Part shown: piece after piece, positions 2,182 to 31,506 of the stretch
Numbering within the stretch: position 1 is the first letter of the stretch
Layout of the letters: each line of letters begins with the position of its first letter
DNA from: a virus
Length of the DNA stretch: 45,139 nucleotides
Reading direction: 5' to 3' (one strand)
IMG/VR virus record: IMGVR_UViG_3300025132_005903
Span: 1 to 45,139 of that record
Notes under the pieces: model-generated
Databases searched by the model: none
Seen by the model: the letters and a program-made list of their open reading frames with translations, nothing else
What the model was told of the DNA's origin: nothing
Translations under genes and position numbers: made by a program

Positions 2182-2397
2182 TTATTTTCCTTTTATTTTC
2201 TCTATTGAGCTTATGCCGAATGATCCTAGCGTTACAATAACGAAGGAGTTATATATTACTTCATTTATTACTAGTTCCATTCCGCACCAACCAGTAATTA
2301 AATCGCAGATTGCGAATATCACCATTAAAACAAAAGAGGCAAAGCCTACAATTGCTTTTTCGTTTATATCGTTTTCGTCTTTGAATAATTTCCACAT
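2182..2397 (-). CDS. small membrane protein, holin candidate
   Basis: A 71-residue protein with two hydrophobic segments (about residues 14-34 and 46-62) separated by a short loop, and a charged C-terminal tail (SSIEKIKGK). Size, two-helix topology and its place directly before the L,D-transpeptidase-like gene fit a class II-type holin, but no holin signature is visible. The ATG overlaps the stop of the upstream gene (TAATG). Other small membrane proteins sit nearby, so which of them forms the lysis pore is uncertain. Confidence 0.5.
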   Translation of the reverse strand: MWKLFKDENDINEKAIVGFASFVLMVIFAICDLITGWCGMELVINEVIYNSFVIVTLGSFGISSIEKIKGK

Positions 2398-2744
2398 TAG
2401 AAGTCATCTCCATATATTTCATTAATTTTTTCCTGAACCTCTTCTAAGGTTGCTTTCATAGAAAAAGAAATATCAGCTTGATATCTTTTCACCTCTTCAC
2501 CTTCATTGAATATTATTATTGTAGGTACAACTACTATCTCGTATTTATTTTGAGCTTTTGTATCAGTAGCTATATCACAAGATTTAATTTTACAATTTTC
2601 TAAATCTCCTACCCATTCAACGTCGTTTGCTGAATTCCATCCGGCATTAAAATGTACTATTGTTAAATCACCACCGATTTTTATTGTTTGACTAAAACCT
2701 ATAAAAGGTATTAACATGACCAATAATAATTTGAATAATTTCAT
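2397..2744 (-). CDS. exported thioredoxin-fold-like protein lacking CxxC
   Basis: 115 residues. An N-terminal signal peptide (KLFKLLLVMLIPFIGFSQ, residues 2-19) with a flavobacterial-style FSQ end indicates export to the periplasm or outer membrane. The rest reads like a thioredoxin fold: a beta strand ending HFNAGWN, a helix, then VVVPTIIIFNEGEEV, which contains the cis-Pro (Pro74) and the following strand/turn. The redox CxxC is absent: GWNSAN (35-40) stands where WCGPC would be. Two cysteines (51, 56) lie elsewhere. So it is a thioredoxin-like protein without the classical active site, or it uses other cysteines. Substrate unknown. Confidence 0.55.
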   Translation of the reverse strand: MKLFKLLLVMLIPFIGFSQTIKIGGDLTIVHFNAGWNSANDVEWVGDLENCKIKSCDIATDTKAQNKYEIVVVPTIIIFNEGEEVKRYQADISFSMKATLEEVQEKINEIYGDDF

Positions 2745-2747
2745 AAC

Positions 2748-3038
2748 TTATCTCCTGTTTAATTCGTCGATTTTTTCCTCTATACGATCTAGGTCTTCTT
2801 TAATTTCTTCAACGTCTTCTTGAGTATTCTCTATAGTTAAACGTATATTCTTGTCTTTCATATCAAACTCCATCCTAGTTACATCTGGTGGAGGAGGAAT
2901 AGGTAATTCTTTGGCTTCTTCTATATCTGCTTGAAGAGCAAACCACATTCCAATTACAGTTGCCATTGCAAAGCCAATTGCTATTAAAGTTTTTATACTT
3001 ACCTTAAAACCTGAGTCTTCGTTTAATTCTTTTGCCAT
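2748..3038 (-). CDS. single-pass membrane protein with coiled coil
   Basis: 96 residues: a short cytoplasmic N-terminus, one transmembrane helix (about residues 15-35), a Pro-rich hinge (LPIPPPPDV) and a C-terminal coiled coil rich in Glu/Asp/Arg with heptad spacing (EIKEDLDRIEEKIDEL). The layout resembles inner-membrane spanins or other lysis accessory proteins, and the gene lies in the possible lysis group. No family recognised, so this is a topology-based description only. Confidence 0.5.
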   Translation of the reverse strand: MAKELNEDSGFKVSIKTLIAIGFAMATVIGMWFALQADIEEAKELPIPPPPDVTRMEFDMKDKNIRLTIENTQEDVEEIKEDLDRIEEKIDELNRR

Positions 3039-3041
3039 AGT

Positions 3042-3296
3042 TTAATCCCAAAATATCATTTTACCTATAATACCTAACAGAGCTACCCAAATAGACCATA
3101 GAACCTTTTGAGTCTTTCTTCTATACTCTGTGTTTTTATTTATTCTAGCAATAGCACCATCATCTGGTCCCAACAGTTGTTTCTTAATCATAGTTAAATC
3201 TTCTTGCATCTTTGTTTGCCCATTTTTCAAGTATTCAACATCTTGCTTTACAAGTTTGATTTCGCTGTACAAATGTTCGTTAGTTGGTCGTGCCAT
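3042..3296 (-). CDS. coiled-coil protein with C-terminal membrane helix (XhlA/holin-like)
   Basis: 84 residues. Residues 10-45 form a predicted coiled coil (EIKLVKQDVEYL, TKMQEDLTMIKKQL), and the C-terminus (about 66-82) is one hydrophobic helix ending KMIFWD. Coiled coil plus C-terminal anchor is the architecture of XhlA-type haemolysin/holin proteins, which act with holins in phage lysis. Sequence similarity is only general. Together with the two preceding small membrane proteins this makes three membrane proteins beside a wall-enzyme candidate. Confidence 0.5.
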   Translation of the reverse strand: MARPTNEHLYSEIKLVKQDVEYLKNGQTKMQEDLTMIKKQLLGPDDGAIARINKNTEYRRKTQKVLWSIWVALLGIIGKMIFWD

Positions 3297-3307: not shown

Positions 3308-4393
3308 TTATCTAATTACATAATTGAAACCGAAACTAAAGTCGTGCCAATTTCTGTTCCAATATTTATTATATTTTCCTTCTACAAATAATCCTAATTT
3401 CTTTGGTATGATGTAATACCCAAATATTAATCCTCCCGAGTAATCTATCCATTGTCCACCGTGGAATTTATGATATGAAAATTCTCCACCATCGTCATAA
3501 TGATATGGCATTATATTTCCCCAAGAGTGTAACCAAAAGTCTTTTGTATAATGATAATAGTCAAAACCAATTACAACAGAATGCTGTAAATTTTGTTCTA
3601 ACTTATTTCTTTCTTTTTCTACGTAATCAGATAAAGCTTGAGGTATTACAACACCCTCCCAAATTTGCGTATTTTCTGCTACTAAATTGCCAGATGGATT
3701 ATAGTATGTTACTCCTCCCTGTCCATCGAATTGAACTGAATAACCTTCTTGTAAAGCTAGGTCAGTATAGTGTAGATTACCATTTGATAATAACCATTCT
3801 TCTAATGGATCAAACCCATAAGGTTCGGATAATCTTTGTACAGCTCCTATATTAAAGGATAATTTTTTACCAACCTTTAATCTATATCTTTCTGAAGCTT
3901 CGAAGTATTGGATATCTGCAAAACCATCTTGTAAATATTCTGCTTTAGCAATCCAGTTATCAGCAATATATCTTAAGAAGTGCTGTTGATTTAGGAATTC
4001 AATACCTTGTTGTCTTGCTAGGTCTGCTTCAAATAAAAATTCAAAACCTTTTATTTTACCAATAGTTGCAGCATCTGAAAAAGAGTTTTCTGTACCATTG
4101 TAAAAAGTATTAGCTCTATTTTCATAACCTAATCTAGCAATTTTTCTTACCCCAAATGCTATAGAATAATCAAAAGGTGTAGAGATAGTTTGAGTTTCCA
4201 GCCCATTTGTAATAGAGAATACATCTACATCAGAAACTGAGTTACCACCATTTACAGCTCCATAGAATGTAGAAAACTTAAATATCTTTTTAATTTCTTT
4301 TTTGAATTTGCTATCATCTTGAGCACAGCATTTTTTTGGTACTGCACAAGATGCAATTAAAATAGTTGCTAATATATACAAAAACTTTTTCAT
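3308..4393 (-). CDS. exported lipoprotein, outer-membrane beta-barrel-like
   Basis: 361 residues. The N-terminus is a lipoprotein-type signal peptide with a lipobox IASC (lipidated Cys16). The remainder alternates polar and aromatic/hydrophobic residues in short strands (YSIAFGVRKIARLGYE, HSVVIGFDYYHYTKDF, SGGLIFGYYIIPKKLGLFVEG) and ends with an aromatic-rich strand, FSFGFNYVIR, typical of outer-membrane beta barrels. A cell-surface or outer-membrane location in the Bacteroidetes host is inferred. No known family recognised. Phage-encoded outer-membrane proteins often alter receptor access or superinfection, but that is speculation here. It lies directly beside the T9SS cargo-like gene. Confidence 0.55.
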   Translation of the reverse strand: MKKFLYILATILIASCAVPKKCCAQDDSKFKKEIKKIFKFSTFYGAVNGGNSVSDVDVFSITNGLETQTISTPFDYSIAFGVRKIARLGYENRANTFYNGTENSFSDAATIGKIKGFEFLFEADLARQQGIEFLNQQHFLRYIADNWIAKAEYLQDGFADIQYFEASERYRLKVGKKLSFNIGAVQRLSEPYGFDPLEEWLLSNGNLHYTDLALQEGYSVQFDGQGGVTYYNPSGNLVAENTQIWEGVVIPQALSDYVEKERNKLEQNLQHSVVIGFDYYHYTKDFWLHSWGNIMPYHYDDGGEFSYHKFHGGQWIDYSGGLIFGYYIIPKKLGLFVEGKYNKYWNRNWHDFSFGFNYVIR

Positions 4394-4412: not shown

Positions 4413-7400
4413 TTATTGTTTTACTAATCTCTGTTGGAATCTTCTACCATCGTGTATAATTACCATATTATATAATCCAGAAGGATATCCTGCTAGTGAA
4501 ATTCTTTTTTCTTTTGATTTTAAGATTGTTCTTCCTGATAAATCGTAAATCTCTACTTCAATGTCTAATCTTGTATCTATATTAAATATATCTTCAGAAG
4601 GATTAGGATAAACTATAATAGTACCCGACCCAGATAATTCTTCTACTGATACTGGCCATCCTTGTTGACAGTAATCATACATTGATTGACATGAAGCATC
4701 CCAGTCAGTAGTGCAGCAATAATCGTCTACATCTATTACCCAAGCATAACATCCATCGTTTAACCAATATGGTATTCCTGGTCCTCCGTAGCAACCTGCA
4801 TCATATAAACAAGCTGTTGAATCTGAAACATTTGCTGCTGGATTATAATTGTAAGCTGATACATCAGTACATCCTGTTATTATTTCTATACAAGAATTAT
4901 CATCAAAACAAGCGTTGGGATCATAGTTCAATGCTGTTGGATCTGTACAACCTGATATATAACAACAGCTGTTATCCGAGGTATTTGCTAGTGGATCATA
5001 ATTTAATGCAGTTGGATCATTACAACCATATACAAATTCTATGCATGAACCATTATCAACGTTTGCTAGTGGATTGTAATTAAACATGGTTGAATCAGTA
5101 CAACCGTAAATTGGTAGAATACAAGATAAATCATCTGTATTTGCCAGTGGGTCGTAATTTAATGCTATTGGATTAGTACATCCATATACAACTACTTGAC
5201 AAGTTCCATTGTCTGTATTTGCTAATGGATCATAATTAAATGCAGTAGAATCTGTGCAGCCATAAACATAAGGAATACAACCACCTGATGAAGTATTTGC
5301 TAATGGATCATAATTAAACATAGTTGGATCCATACATCCAATTATTACTGGAATACATGTTGAGTCATCTACATTGGCAGCTGGATCATAGTTAAATGCT
5401 GTTGGATCAGTGCATCCAAGTACTGGATAGACACATCCATTGTTAACTGTAGCAGTTGGATCATAGTTTAATGCTGTGCTATCCGTGCAACCGATATAAT
5501 AGCATGAGCCATCGTCGGTATTTGCAACTGAATTATAATTATCAGCTATTGTATCTGTACATCCGTAAATGTATCCTATACATGAACCATCATCAGTATT
5601 TGCTAAAGAATCATAGTTAAAAGCTAAATCATTTGTACATCCATATATAATTGGAATACAATTTCCATCATCCGTATTTGCCAATGGATCATAATTAAAT
5701 GATGTTGAATCTGTACAACCAAATATCTTTGGAATACAAGTGTTACCACAGAATGGAACTCCTGTATACTTTGTCCAGAATGGAGATTCAAATGATTGTA
5801 AAGCTCCTTGACCATTATTTGCAAAAGGATTCTGTCCTTCATACATTAAAACAAAACCATCAGAATTGGTTAACTTGAAAGAATTGTGCCACGTTTGGAA
5901 TTGCACTTCTTGTGGTGGTTGTTGTGGTCCACCAACTTCAAAGTATCTAACTTCTACTGGAACTCCTGGGTCTAAAATAATATTCCAAGTTTGTTGATAA
6001 TTACCTGGTCCTAATGTATATGTTCCAAGATCAATGCCATTTTGATATATACCAATGAATGAGTTACCCCAACCATCTCCTCCAGCATCTCCAATCCATA
6101 ATTCATAATTACAATCTGGAATAAGATCCATCATTGTTGCAGATGGGTCATAGTTAAATGCTGTTGCATCAGTACAACCATAAGTGTGTAATGTTGCACA
6201 AGATCCATCATCGTTATTTGCAGCTGGATTGAATTCTACATAATCGTCATCTGTACATCCATCTATTACTGGGATAACTGGGCATGGTGTAGCTGTTTGA
6301 GGTCCTGAATATAATACATTTCCAAAACCAGGATTATCCATATACCAAATAGTATCTCCTGAGCAATCATAAATAACAATAGCTCCATCTGTATTTCCAC
6401 CTGATGTTGAACCTGCCATACCATCACCAAAGTCATCGTTAATAATCATTTCAAATGCAGCGTTTTGATCTACACAAAAAGTATAAGTATAAGTTTGTCC
6501 TATATCATTGAAATCATAAGTTCCTACTGGATATGTAAATGTATTCCCTAAACCGTCAACGAAGTCCCAGCTTGTTTCTCCTGGCCAATTGTCTAATGTT
6601 ATTGAAATTGAAATTTGATATTGTGTTGCAGTATCACAAGTTGTACCTGAACAAGAACCATCATCGAATGTTGCCCATGGATTATAAGATGGTTGTGCTG
6701 GATCTAAACAACCTGGAATACAAGGTGTAGGTGTATAAAATATAGTATCAGATAATGAACCATCTGCAAATTCTACTTGACCATAATGTTCTACCTCCCA
6801 ATTAGGTGGCATCTGACCATTTCCTGCGTATACCCCAAAGTTTGTTGCTCCATAACCTAGTCCATATTGAAAAGGTCCTACGCCATCTTCATTTGAATAC
6901 CAGAATTTTACCGGTTGACAGCTTAAATTGTTATCTAGAGTCCATTCAAAATAAACTAATGTTTGTCCATTTGGTAAACAAGTTTGTGTTGCTGTATCCG
7001 TAAGAAGACCACCGCATGGTGGATAAATACAAGATCCATCATCAGTGGTTGCAAGTGAGTCGTAATTTGTAGCATTTACATCTGTACAACCAGATACTGG
7101 TGGTGCACATGGTGCTATAATTAAAGTGTCTGTATATAAAGAACCAAAGTCGCCTTCTACATATACTATTGTATCTTGACAATCATTTTGTATTAAGAAC
7201 CATCCTTCTGGTGAACCATTAAAACCTCCTAGTCCATCTCCATATTGATCATATAAATTAAGAATAATTGTTCCGCCAACATCAATTGTTGTATCATATA
7301 GAGTTTGATCCTGCATTATAGAATCAGACTGTGCAATAATTGGTGAACCACCTGGTGGTGTTATAGTCCAAGAAGTTTCTTCTGGATAATCATCTGTTAA

Positions 7401-7478
7401 TAGTTGTATGTTAATCCAACTGTTCTGTCCAAATATAACTGTTGGTAATAGTGCTAATAAAACTAATATTTTTCTCAT
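4413..7478 (-). CDS. secreted repeat protein with T9SS type A C-terminal sorting domain
   Basis: 1021 residues. Residues 1-18 form a Sec signal peptide (MRKILVLLALLPTVIFGQ). Two related beta domains (near 20-115 and 285-400, each with an ETSW motif) and other beta regions are interspersed with four Cys/Asp motifs; residues about 587-893 are twelve near-tandem copies of a 26-residue unit (GCTD-x3-FNYDP-x-AN-x-DDGSC), making 16 in all. Such Asp-rich repeats probably bind Ca2+ (inference). A Cys-rich module follows. The last 73 residues (949-1021) match the T9SS type A sorting domain: IIVYPNPSEDIFNI, IYDLSGRTI, LAGYPSGLYNMVI, then a basic end. The protein should cross the inner membrane by Sec and the outer membrane by T9SS, being released or anchored. 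Its ATG overlaps the stop of a 49-residue ORF. Confidence 0.88.
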   Translation of the reverse strand: MRKILVLLALLPTVIFGQNSWINIQLLTDDYPEETSWTITPPGGSPIIAQSDSIMQDQTLYDTTIDVGGTIILNLYDQYGDGLGGFNGSPEGWFLIQNDCQDTIVYVEGDFGSLYTDTLIIAPCAPPVSGCTDVNATNYDSLATTDDGSCIYPPCGGLLTDTATQTCLPNGQTLVYFEWTLDNNLSCQPVKFWYSNEDGVGPFQYGLGYGATNFGVYAGNGQMPPNWEVEHYGQVEFADGSLSDTIFYTPTPCIPGCLDPAQPSYNPWATFDDGSCSGTTCDTATQYQISISITLDNWPGETSWDFVDGLGNTFTYPVGTYDFNDIGQTYTYTFCVDQNAAFEMIINDDFGDGMAGSTSGGNTDGAIVIYDCSGDTIWYMDNPGFGNVLYSGPQTATPCPVIPVIDGCTDDDYVEFNPAANNDDGSCATLHTYGCTDATAFNYDPSATMMDLIPDCNYELWIGDAGGDGWGNSFIGIYQNGIDLGTYTLGPGNYQQTWNIILDPGVPVEVRYFEVGGPQQPPQEVQFQTWHNSFKLTNSDGFVLMYEGQNPFANNGQGALQSFESPFWTKYTGVPFCGNTCIPKIFGCTDSTSFNYDPLANTDDGNCIPIIYGCTNDLAFNYDSLANTDDGSCIGYIYGCTDTIADNYNSVANTDDGSCYYIGCTDSTALNYDPTATVNNGCVYPVLGCTDPTAFNYDPAANVDDSTCIPVIIGCMDPTMFNYDPLANTSSGGCIPYVYGCTDSTAFNYDPLANTDNGTCQVVVYGCTNPIALNYDPLANTDDLSCILPIYGCTDSTMFNYNPLANVDNGSCIEFVYGCNDPTALNYDPLANTSDNSCCYISGCTDPTALNYDPNACFDDNSCIEIITGCTDVSAYNYNPAANVSDSTACLYDAGCYGGPGIPYWLNDGCYAWVIDVDDYCCTTDWDASCQSMYDYCQQGWPVSVEELSGSGTIIVYPNPSEDIFNIDTRLDIEVEIYDLSGRTILKSKEKRISLAGYPSGLYNMVIIHDGRRFQQRLVKQ
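4798..5720 (-). repeat. twelve near-tandem ~77-bp coding repeats
   Basis: Within the T9SS-type gene, twelve degenerate copies of a roughly 77-bp unit follow one another, each encoding GC-[TMN]-[DN] ... NY-[DN]-P-x-A ... C. Four more copies are dispersed earlier in the gene. Copies differ by many substitutions but keep length and frame, so they are protein-level repeats under selection. In-frame expansion or contraction by recombination would be expected. Confidence 0.85.
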
Positions 7479-7624
7479 ATTTCGAATCCCAAATTTAATA
7501 TCATAAATCTAAACTTAGATTTTTCTAATTTTATTTCTAATACTGTAAAAGTACCTAATCTAAATTCTAAATAGTACTTTTCCTTTTTATTACCGGCATC
7601 AAAACCGTTTATCCAATTTATCAT
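7475..7624 (-). CDS. small hypothetical protein, 49 aa
   Basis: A short ORF fills the gap before the T9SS-type gene: MINWINGFDAGNKKEK at the start and LGFEI at the end, 49 residues. Its TGA overlaps the ATG of the long gene (ATGA), and AAAGGGA lies about 7 bases before its own ATG, so it may act as a translational lead-in. No family recognised; the aromatic and basic content is not membrane-like. Existence moderately supported. Confidence 0.5.
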   Translation of the reverse strand: MINWINGFDAGNKKEKYYLEFRLGTFTVLEIKLEKSKFRFMILNLGFEI

Positions 7625-29527: not shown

Positions 29528-31442
<1,915 letters not shown>

Positions 31443-31506
31443 ATTAACCTCCATTATTATTGATTTATAACTTTTTATTTACTTATATAAATATAGAGTA
31501 GAACTA

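Follow-up and report, generated by a model that had tools for sequence, protein, structure and literature searches.

A phage gene predicted to encode a type IX secretion substrate, in a conserved cassette of envelope proteins

The window analysed here is the whole of the IMG/VR virus record IMGVR_UViG_3300025132_005903, a stretch of 45,139 bases in which nearly all long open reading frames (ORFs) lie on the minus strand. One of these, at 4413-7478 (-), starts with ATG and encodes a protein of 1021 aa with 52 Cys residues. It combines an N-terminal signal with a C-terminal sorting domain (CTD), recognized by two sequence families, of the kind borne by type A substrates, or cargo, of the type IX secretion system (T9SS). 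Export of this cargo by T9SS is well supported by its sequence. The gene lies in a recurrent cassette of four genes for envelope proteins, and it is, on balance, probable that the cargo is a phage-encoded substrate of the host T9SS, made together with the cassette; superinfection exclusion is tentatively proposed as its purpose. Phage-encoded T9SS cargo has already been published; what is new is the conserved cassette and the exchange of cargo heads. An earlier note on this DNA had correctly read the gene as viral, with a Sec-type signal and a T9SS sorting domain, but had missed its membership in the cassette.

Sorting domain and signal peptide of the cargo

Profile searches bore out the earlier claim of a type A sorting domain. 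PF18962 matched residues 956-1018 with 38.9 bits (cut-off 27, E = 1.1e-9), TIGR04183 matched residues 956-1021, at 4416-4613 (-), with 37.4 bits (cut-off 23), and a six-frame scan of the record for the CTD gave 43.4 bits (E = 1.8e-12). The match is not due to chance, since all canonical tails chosen from relatives (23/23) also matched TIGR04183. Residues Y957, P958, N959, P960, G982, G1001 and Y1003 were invariant in 22 sequences, and a profile built from 44 sequences matched solved T9SS CTDs in the PDB (8glk, 8glj and gingipain R2). A predicted structure agreed with this assignment. The AlphaFold2 (AF2) model of residues 953-1021 shares the fold of 8glk_D, the CTD of the substrate NucA bound within a T9SS complex (Z 9.5, rmsd 2.1, 68 residues aligned, 26% identity; Foldseek TM 0.74 by target), and also fitted 8gl8_D, a chain of the SprA-PorV-PPI-RemZ complex, with Z 8.9. 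The fold alone would not settle the identity of the domain, because the DUF3244 protein 4g5a_A matched the model equally (Z 9.7). Residues 941-950, ahead of the CTD, were modelled with pLDDT below 50, as would be expected of a cleavable linker. No enzyme or toxin domain was found in the cargo with Pfam, NCBIfam or PHROGs; NF038113 matched through the CTD alone.

The Sec signal peptide proposed for the cargo was also recovered, by our own heuristic pattern after the hydrophobic core and not by SignalP. Residues 1-17, at 7428-7478 (-), contain a hydrophobic core followed by FG-Q (MRKILVLLALLPTVIFG|Q), with the predicted cut at FG/Q. In Bacteroidetes, most substrates of signal peptidase I start with Q once cleaved, according to an excerpt of PMC5837995. 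A small residue followed by Q after a hydrophobic N-terminus was found in 93/93 cargo, 103/103 barrel and 91/91 thioredoxin-fold proteins of the cassettes described below, compared with 24, 25 and 14%, respectively, in mature control stretches; the count omits four cargo-like and three barrel ORFs that have no hydrophobic N-terminus and are non-cargo or pieces. T9SS substrates reach the periplasm by the Sec pathway, fold there, and are recognized through the CTD at PorV and SprA; they lose the CTD at the surface, and are then anchored or released. The cargo sequence fits every one of these steps that is visible to sequence.

The cargo gene belongs to a four-gene envelope cassette

In the window, the cargo gene is followed by genes for a 361-aa outer-membrane beta-barrel (3308-4393 (-)), a 96-aa coiled-coil-like protein with one transmembrane (TM) segment (2748-3038 (-)), and an exported thioredoxin-fold protein without CxxC (2397-2744 (-)). 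The barrel was assigned from a sequence alignment, an AF2 model (pLDDT 74.8) and barrel fold matches, the TM protein from its hydrophobic stretch and its recurrence at the loci of relatives, and the thioredoxin fold from PF00085, at 23.9 bits just over the cut-off of 23.5. To determine how constant this set is, viral contigs were scanned with the barrel, and the best 80 of at least 583 confirmed stretches were taken. Loci were scored if they had flanks of 5 kb and 3.5 kb (40/80), and a member within 4.5 kb was counted. Cargo was present at 40/40 scored loci, the TM protein at 39/40, the thioredoxin fold at 39/40, and all three at 39/40. At the sole exception, L135, the TM protein and thioredoxin fold lay at 5.1 and 5.4 kb. 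When contigs already met were excluded, the full set was present at 28 of 29 barrel loci. Several barrel loci with short flanks, such as L084, L096, L098, L100, L141 and L151, had at least one member unseen, with a contig end nearby. The genes were ordered cargo-barrel-TM-thioredoxin or barrel-TM-thioredoxin-cargo, at times with intervening genes. Among the 72 neighbour pairs listed, the cargo stop overlapped the barrel start by 4 bases in 39, and the distance between the two was within 20 bases in 53. No description of a lineage-wide cassette was found among open-licence papers.

The AF2 model of the barrel was closest to OmpG and CymA (Z up to 11.4, many barrels tied). By sequence, the barrel had no match among annotated phages at E 1e-3, no significant match in the PDB, and stray matches alone in Pfam; its start is also compatible with a lipoprotein signal. 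A PorV- or PorP-like barrel was sought with Pfam, TIGR03519, a PDB profile and the fold, and generic barrels alone surfaced. The PorP/SprF family was absent from the Pfam matches of 37 barrel relatives, and 8gl6_F, a T9SS complex chain that we take to be PorV, ranked only 33rd against the barrel model (Z 9.2), level with unrelated barrels. In SprB-SprF/PorP pairs, a large surface protein is encoded beside an outer-membrane barrel, with type B signals and PorP/SprF barrels. The window cassette resembles these pairs in setting a large, probably surface-exposed protein next to a barrel and differs from them in its type A signal. TIGR03519 matched in 0/28 records, though control genomes were equally silent.

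The thioredoxin-fold protein lacks the usual active-site motif: CxxC was found at the canonical place in 0/91 relatives, as judged by pattern, with four carrying CxxC elsewhere, and a V-PT motif was retained in 90/91. At one relative, L045:7440-10613, the signal peptide of the cargo (ILISCSAQKKCCAQ) resembles that of the window barrel, as though swapped between neighbours.

A predicted stalk and an exchangeable head

Behind the signal peptide, the cargo consists of an N-terminal head (residues 18-125, 7104-7427 (-)), a fibronectin type III (FN3)-like domain (residues 153-253, 6720-7022 (-)) whose model matched FN3 domains with Z ~9, a main run of GC(T)D..NYDP..DDGSC repeats (residues 587-890, 4809-5720 (-)), and a Cys-rich domain (residues 891-941, 4656-4808 (-)) ahead of the CTD. 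Sixteen GC(T/M/L/N)(D/N/S) units were listed, matching the 16 Cys/Asp repeats reported earlier, and 12 of these fall in the main run. The AF2 model of the whole cargo was moderately good (mean pLDDT 73, pTM 0.35), so the domains may be trusted and the overall shape may not. Besides the CTD and FN3, the top Foldseek rows for this model were unhelpful long multi-domain alignments. The cargo profile also touched macrophage MPEG1 at residues 244-280.

Median dN/dS was lowest, at 0.09, in the Cys-rich domain, the most conserved part of the protein and one with invariant columns, followed by 0.15-0.28 in the middle, 0.37 in the CTD (101 pairs), and 0.43-0.49 in the head and signal peptide; the ranking is safer than the values, since synonymous sites were often near saturation. 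These ratios show, as far as sequence comparison can, that purifying selection has preserved the signal peptide and CTD across a lineage of T4-like phages.

The head differed sharply between otherwise similar loci. The window and L017 have barrels 99% and CTDs 100% identical, with heads only 34% identical (over residues 19-140 of the window cargo), and L033 and L093 have barrels 97%, CTDs 94% and heads 5% identical. Heads were less than 45% alike in 20 of 57 pairs whose barrels were at least 85% alike, involving 19 of 82 sequences. Cargo length ranged from 626 to 1465 aa and Cys content from 28 to 86 in 87 ORFs, a set filtered at 600-1600 aa that includes the broken or cut L067 and L124. The cargo thus has the build of an anchored, fibre-like stalk with a changeable tip.

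Distribution, phage identity and host

A scan of viral contigs with the cargo protein gave 72 other loci, many aligned from residue 1 to 1021; the 18 contigs met in both this and the barrel scan were counted once. Both gene ends were present at 53 loci. At 45 of these the protein joins a hydrophobic N-terminus to the canonical CTD pattern, and at five such an N-terminus goes with a short tail; the remaining three are L067, L071 and L073. In 50 phage records searched (of the 72 loci), PF18962 matched 41, 40 of these over the cut-off, with a single match per record (E 0.001) in records of up to 231 kb. The nine records that did not match were two non-cargo loci, one contig cut within the gene and six with short tails; L055, a 'canonical' cargo by pattern, fell under the PF18962 cut-off at 19.4 bits. 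Not counted as cargo were L071, L073 and the repeat-bearing upstream ORFs of L055, L056, L058, L113 and L136; L067 and L124 were also classed 'other', and 13 cargo ORFs were open at the 3' end. In annotated phages searched with the whole cargo, the repeats alone matched, in five records. Deposited relatives from uncultured viruses, A0A218MM41 and A0A218ML01, have BFVD models and aligned over ~1000 columns with 32 and 46% identity; they are named 'Secretion system C-terminal sorting domain-containing protein' and 'Putative peptidase', respectively.

The source is, by its gene content, an uncultured T4-like phage. The window encodes a T4-type DNA polymerase (PolB; phrog_262, E = 1e-95) with 22-27% identity to annotated phages among the 25 matches listed, and the gp23 capsid gene (PF07068) was present in 13 of 27 large related records. 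No capsid gene was seen in the window, which is a fragment, and no search aimed at capsid genes was made.

The host is very probably a member of the Bacteroidetes. Besides the Q that follows the predicted cut, the window GroEL found its best PDB match in an ancestral Fibrobacteres-Chlorobi-Bacteroidetes (FCB) chaperonin (639 vs 605 bits), and the first-ranked phage was the Flavobacterium phage immuto (545 bits). This GroEL signal is weak, because two Salmonella records (550 bits) and plasmid GroELs (up to 582 bits) scored higher and the collections searched contained no Bacteroidetes chromosomes. Proteins of Virus NIOZ-UU157, for which the excerpt of the source states no host, are also BFVD neighbours.

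Relation to known phage-encoded T9SS cargo

Use of T9SS by a virus had been called little described in the earlier note. Descriptions are indeed few, but the subject is not undescribed, as the excerpts of two papers indicate. Bellas et al. (2020, PMC7468147) describe three Cryophage genes that encode type A sorting domains of T9SS, and the same authors already suggested competition or superinfection exclusion for the products. The likeness lies in variable phage genes with type A sorting domains. In Cryophage, however, these are three different genes (endoglucanase, GH39 and PA14) in one phage type, whereas the window lineage has one family, one per record, with barrel, TM protein and thioredoxin fold, as judged from the published description. 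ORFs with T9SS sorting domains are also mentioned in a study from 2019 that deals with BACON domains of crAss-like phages (PMC6949934). In crAss-like cluster 2 these lie beside, or are fused to, BACON ORFs upstream of the head genes, and no comparable cassette appears in what the excerpt describes.

A cultured example was found in Flavobacterium phage vB_FspM_immuto, whose host is named as Flavobacterium sp. LMO8. Its protein QQO91933.1 (L155:4506-5237) was at first a weak match (E 0.3) and was then confirmed by Pfam families, with 36.7 bits for PF18962 and 36.6 bits for the cohesin family PF00963. Unlike the window cargo, it is a 243-aa protein with a cohesin domain and without the GCTD stalk, and it is annotated 'cohesin domain-containing' alone. 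No cassette like that of the window is annotated in the 10 kb of immuto examined. Three further CTD queries of annotated phages brought up immuto once more, together with a pair of huge uncultured phages and an unverified scaffold. One uncultured phage record of 642 kb encodes a protein of 186 aa (L157:3653-4213) that begins in the manner of a signal peptide and ends in the manner of a CTD. MT836089, on an unverified faecal scaffold, looks by eye like a bacterial protease with a CTD; it was not counted as phage evidence.

A possible role in superinfection exclusion

In the proposed mechanism, the cargo would cross the inner membrane by the Sec system, fold and form disulfides in the periplasm, perhaps assisted by the thioredoxin fold, and leave through the host SprA/PorV translocon. 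Once outside, it would form a long stalk stapled by disulfides, whose CTD end lies at the cell surface while the exchangeable head points away from it; the phage barrel may be its neighbour there. The virus would thus probably redecorate the infected cell from outside. There, the cargo may cover or occupy surface adhesins and receptors used by other phages, with head exchange tracking changing targets. In Flavobacterium columnare, gld and spr mutants resist phage V156, as reported in an excerpt of PMC9233685, so such phages depend on the surface made by T9SS. By adding a large protein of its own to this surface, a phage could shut out others. Superinfection exclusion by covering or occupying surface adhesins and receptors is on these grounds quite possible as the purpose of the cargo, and is proposed tentatively. 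The changeable head is as compatible with adhesion as with exclusion, and in our judgement the conserved barrel favours exclusion a little. Somewhat more doubtful is the fuller proposal that a T4-like lineage runs a dedicated display system against competing phages, made of a head-swappable T9SS fibre, a partner barrel and periplasmic helpers.

The phage proteins described from the surface of infected cells are mostly small exclusion lipoproteins or membrane proteins of a few models, and Bacteroidetes are one of the main bacterial groups of the ocean. If the proposal is true, viruses rebuild the exterior of these bacteria by feeding a large modular protein into T9SS, a system typical of the group, and superinfection exclusion, aggregation and receptor masking would become testable in them. 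At least 583 viral stretches can be recognized by the barrel, and the cultured phage immuto offers an experimental entry point.

Several observations weigh against this reading. Both the host and its T9SS are deduced rather than observed; the phage barrel fits generic barrels; and 37 of the 57 close pairs, which are not independent, show no head exchange. Counted over distinct contigs, the cargo ORF closes with the canonical CTD in 86 cases and with a short tail in 19, both kinds of tail being assigned by pattern. The short tail reads 'DLLGRP..(F/Y)IY.DG.V.KK' (DLLGRPxK..LLFYIYSDGSVEKKLIKK), for example at L117, L118, L119 and L066. PF18962 matched none of the short-tail proteins searched with Pfam (0/7), and a profile comparison of the short tail with the CTD (hhalign) gave 5% probability, so that a form such as 'DLLGRP..YSDGSVEKK' was not shown to be a reduced CTD. 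L116 and L118 have barrels 93% and heads 85% alike, with tails unlike. Because it takes the place of the CTD in an otherwise similar cargo, the short tail is possibly another, undescribed sorting tail.

The use of ribosome-binding sites in the window speaks against a typical flavobacterial host. Bacteroidetes phages make little use of Shine-Dalgarno (SD) sites. SD-like sites were found upstream of 23 of 49 window genes (7.8 expected; 4 of 53 ORFs were omitted, with a start other than ATG), unlike the control, Cellulophaga phage phi38:1 (3/42, 1.6 expected). In relatives, they were near chance for cargo (5/97) and barrel (11/106) and above chance for the TM protein (14/86, 6.2 expected) and thioredoxin fold (18/91, 5.7 expected).

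Alternative explanations

The strongest alternative, which we consider unlikely though well worth weighing, keeps the same export and display and makes the fibre an adhesin, through which an infected cell would be attached to its neighbours, to particles or to polysaccharide and would release its progeny in the midst of new hosts. The beta-sandwich and FN3-like domains, the long variable stalk and the swappable head of the cargo would suit such a role, as would the cohesin domain on the short CTD protein of immuto and the involvement of gld and spr genes in adhesin secretion reported in the excerpt of PMC9233685. However, no carbohydrate-binding or lectin family matched the window protein, and adhesion leaves the linked barrel and thioredoxin fold unexplained.

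It is improbable that the cassette is instead a late module for breaching the envelope, in which the barrel, a spanin-like one-TM protein and the cargo loosen the outer membrane together with an endolysin. A gene 218 bases beyond the cassette does match phrog_33083 'endolysin' (53 bits), although its best match is phrog_3000, of unknown function, and the coiled-coil protein matches XhlA at 12.2 bits, below the cut-off. The endolysin-like gene also occurs within the flanks of some relatives; its position varies, however, and it is missing from the flanks of many loci, while neither a surface-sorting signal nor an exchangeable head is needed for lysis.

Slightly more improbable again is a virion role, with the cargo becoming a virion fibre during or after export, or the CTD domain being reused in the virion. 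The GC(T)D repeats are shared with 3000-aa virion-type proteins at L071 (with a crAss muzzle C-terminal domain) and L073 (phrog_14478, virion structural protein), and those of the window cargo match a 'virion structural protein' of S-CAM3. Yet the L071 and L073 proteins have neither a hydrophobic N-terminus nor a CTD, whereas the cargo has both and a Q after the predicted cut, and the CTD lies at least 36 kb from gp23 in the 13 gp23-bearing records. GC(T)D repeats were also seen at L136:2-2590, in a virion-type phage protein without a hydrophobic N-terminus.

Phages acquire host genes and the sorting domain is a bacterial signal, but it is hardly credible that the gene was merely captured from a host, or joined to the phage in assembly, and plays no part in infection. 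Purifying selection and similar phage neighbourhoods on other contigs contradict this; the neighbourhoods, with gp23 in the related records, also rule out a host-phage join within the gene or contamination. A single genome scan with two short patterns found no bacterial full-length relative. The lone match of that scan, L074, is a 3.8-kb contig in a Nitrosopelagicus (thaumarchaeal) metagenome-assembled genome that encodes a cargo end; it is probably a mis-binned viral contig.

Other features of the window

Two optional genes accompany the cassette. A small protein with a C-terminal TM, read from the sequence, is encoded at 3042-3296 (-), and a 49-aa ORF (start MINWINGFDAGNKKEKYY) at 7475-7624 (-) has a stop that overlaps the cargo start. 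ORFs related to the latter precede the cargo in the 12 relatives shown, and some ORF so placed, with its stop overlapping the cargo start, was found in 24/99 cargo genes. The T4 late promoter TATAAATA occurred 20 times in the window, against 11.8 by chance, with 4 of 100 shuffles equal, and was not used.

The GroEL gene lies with that of GroES, named by eye, at 29528-31454 (-). Between 10878 and 26656 (-) is a block of apparent sugar-nucleotide, glycosyltransferase, aminotransferase and formyltransferase genes, recognized by eye from their translations, which is possibly another surface-modifying set.

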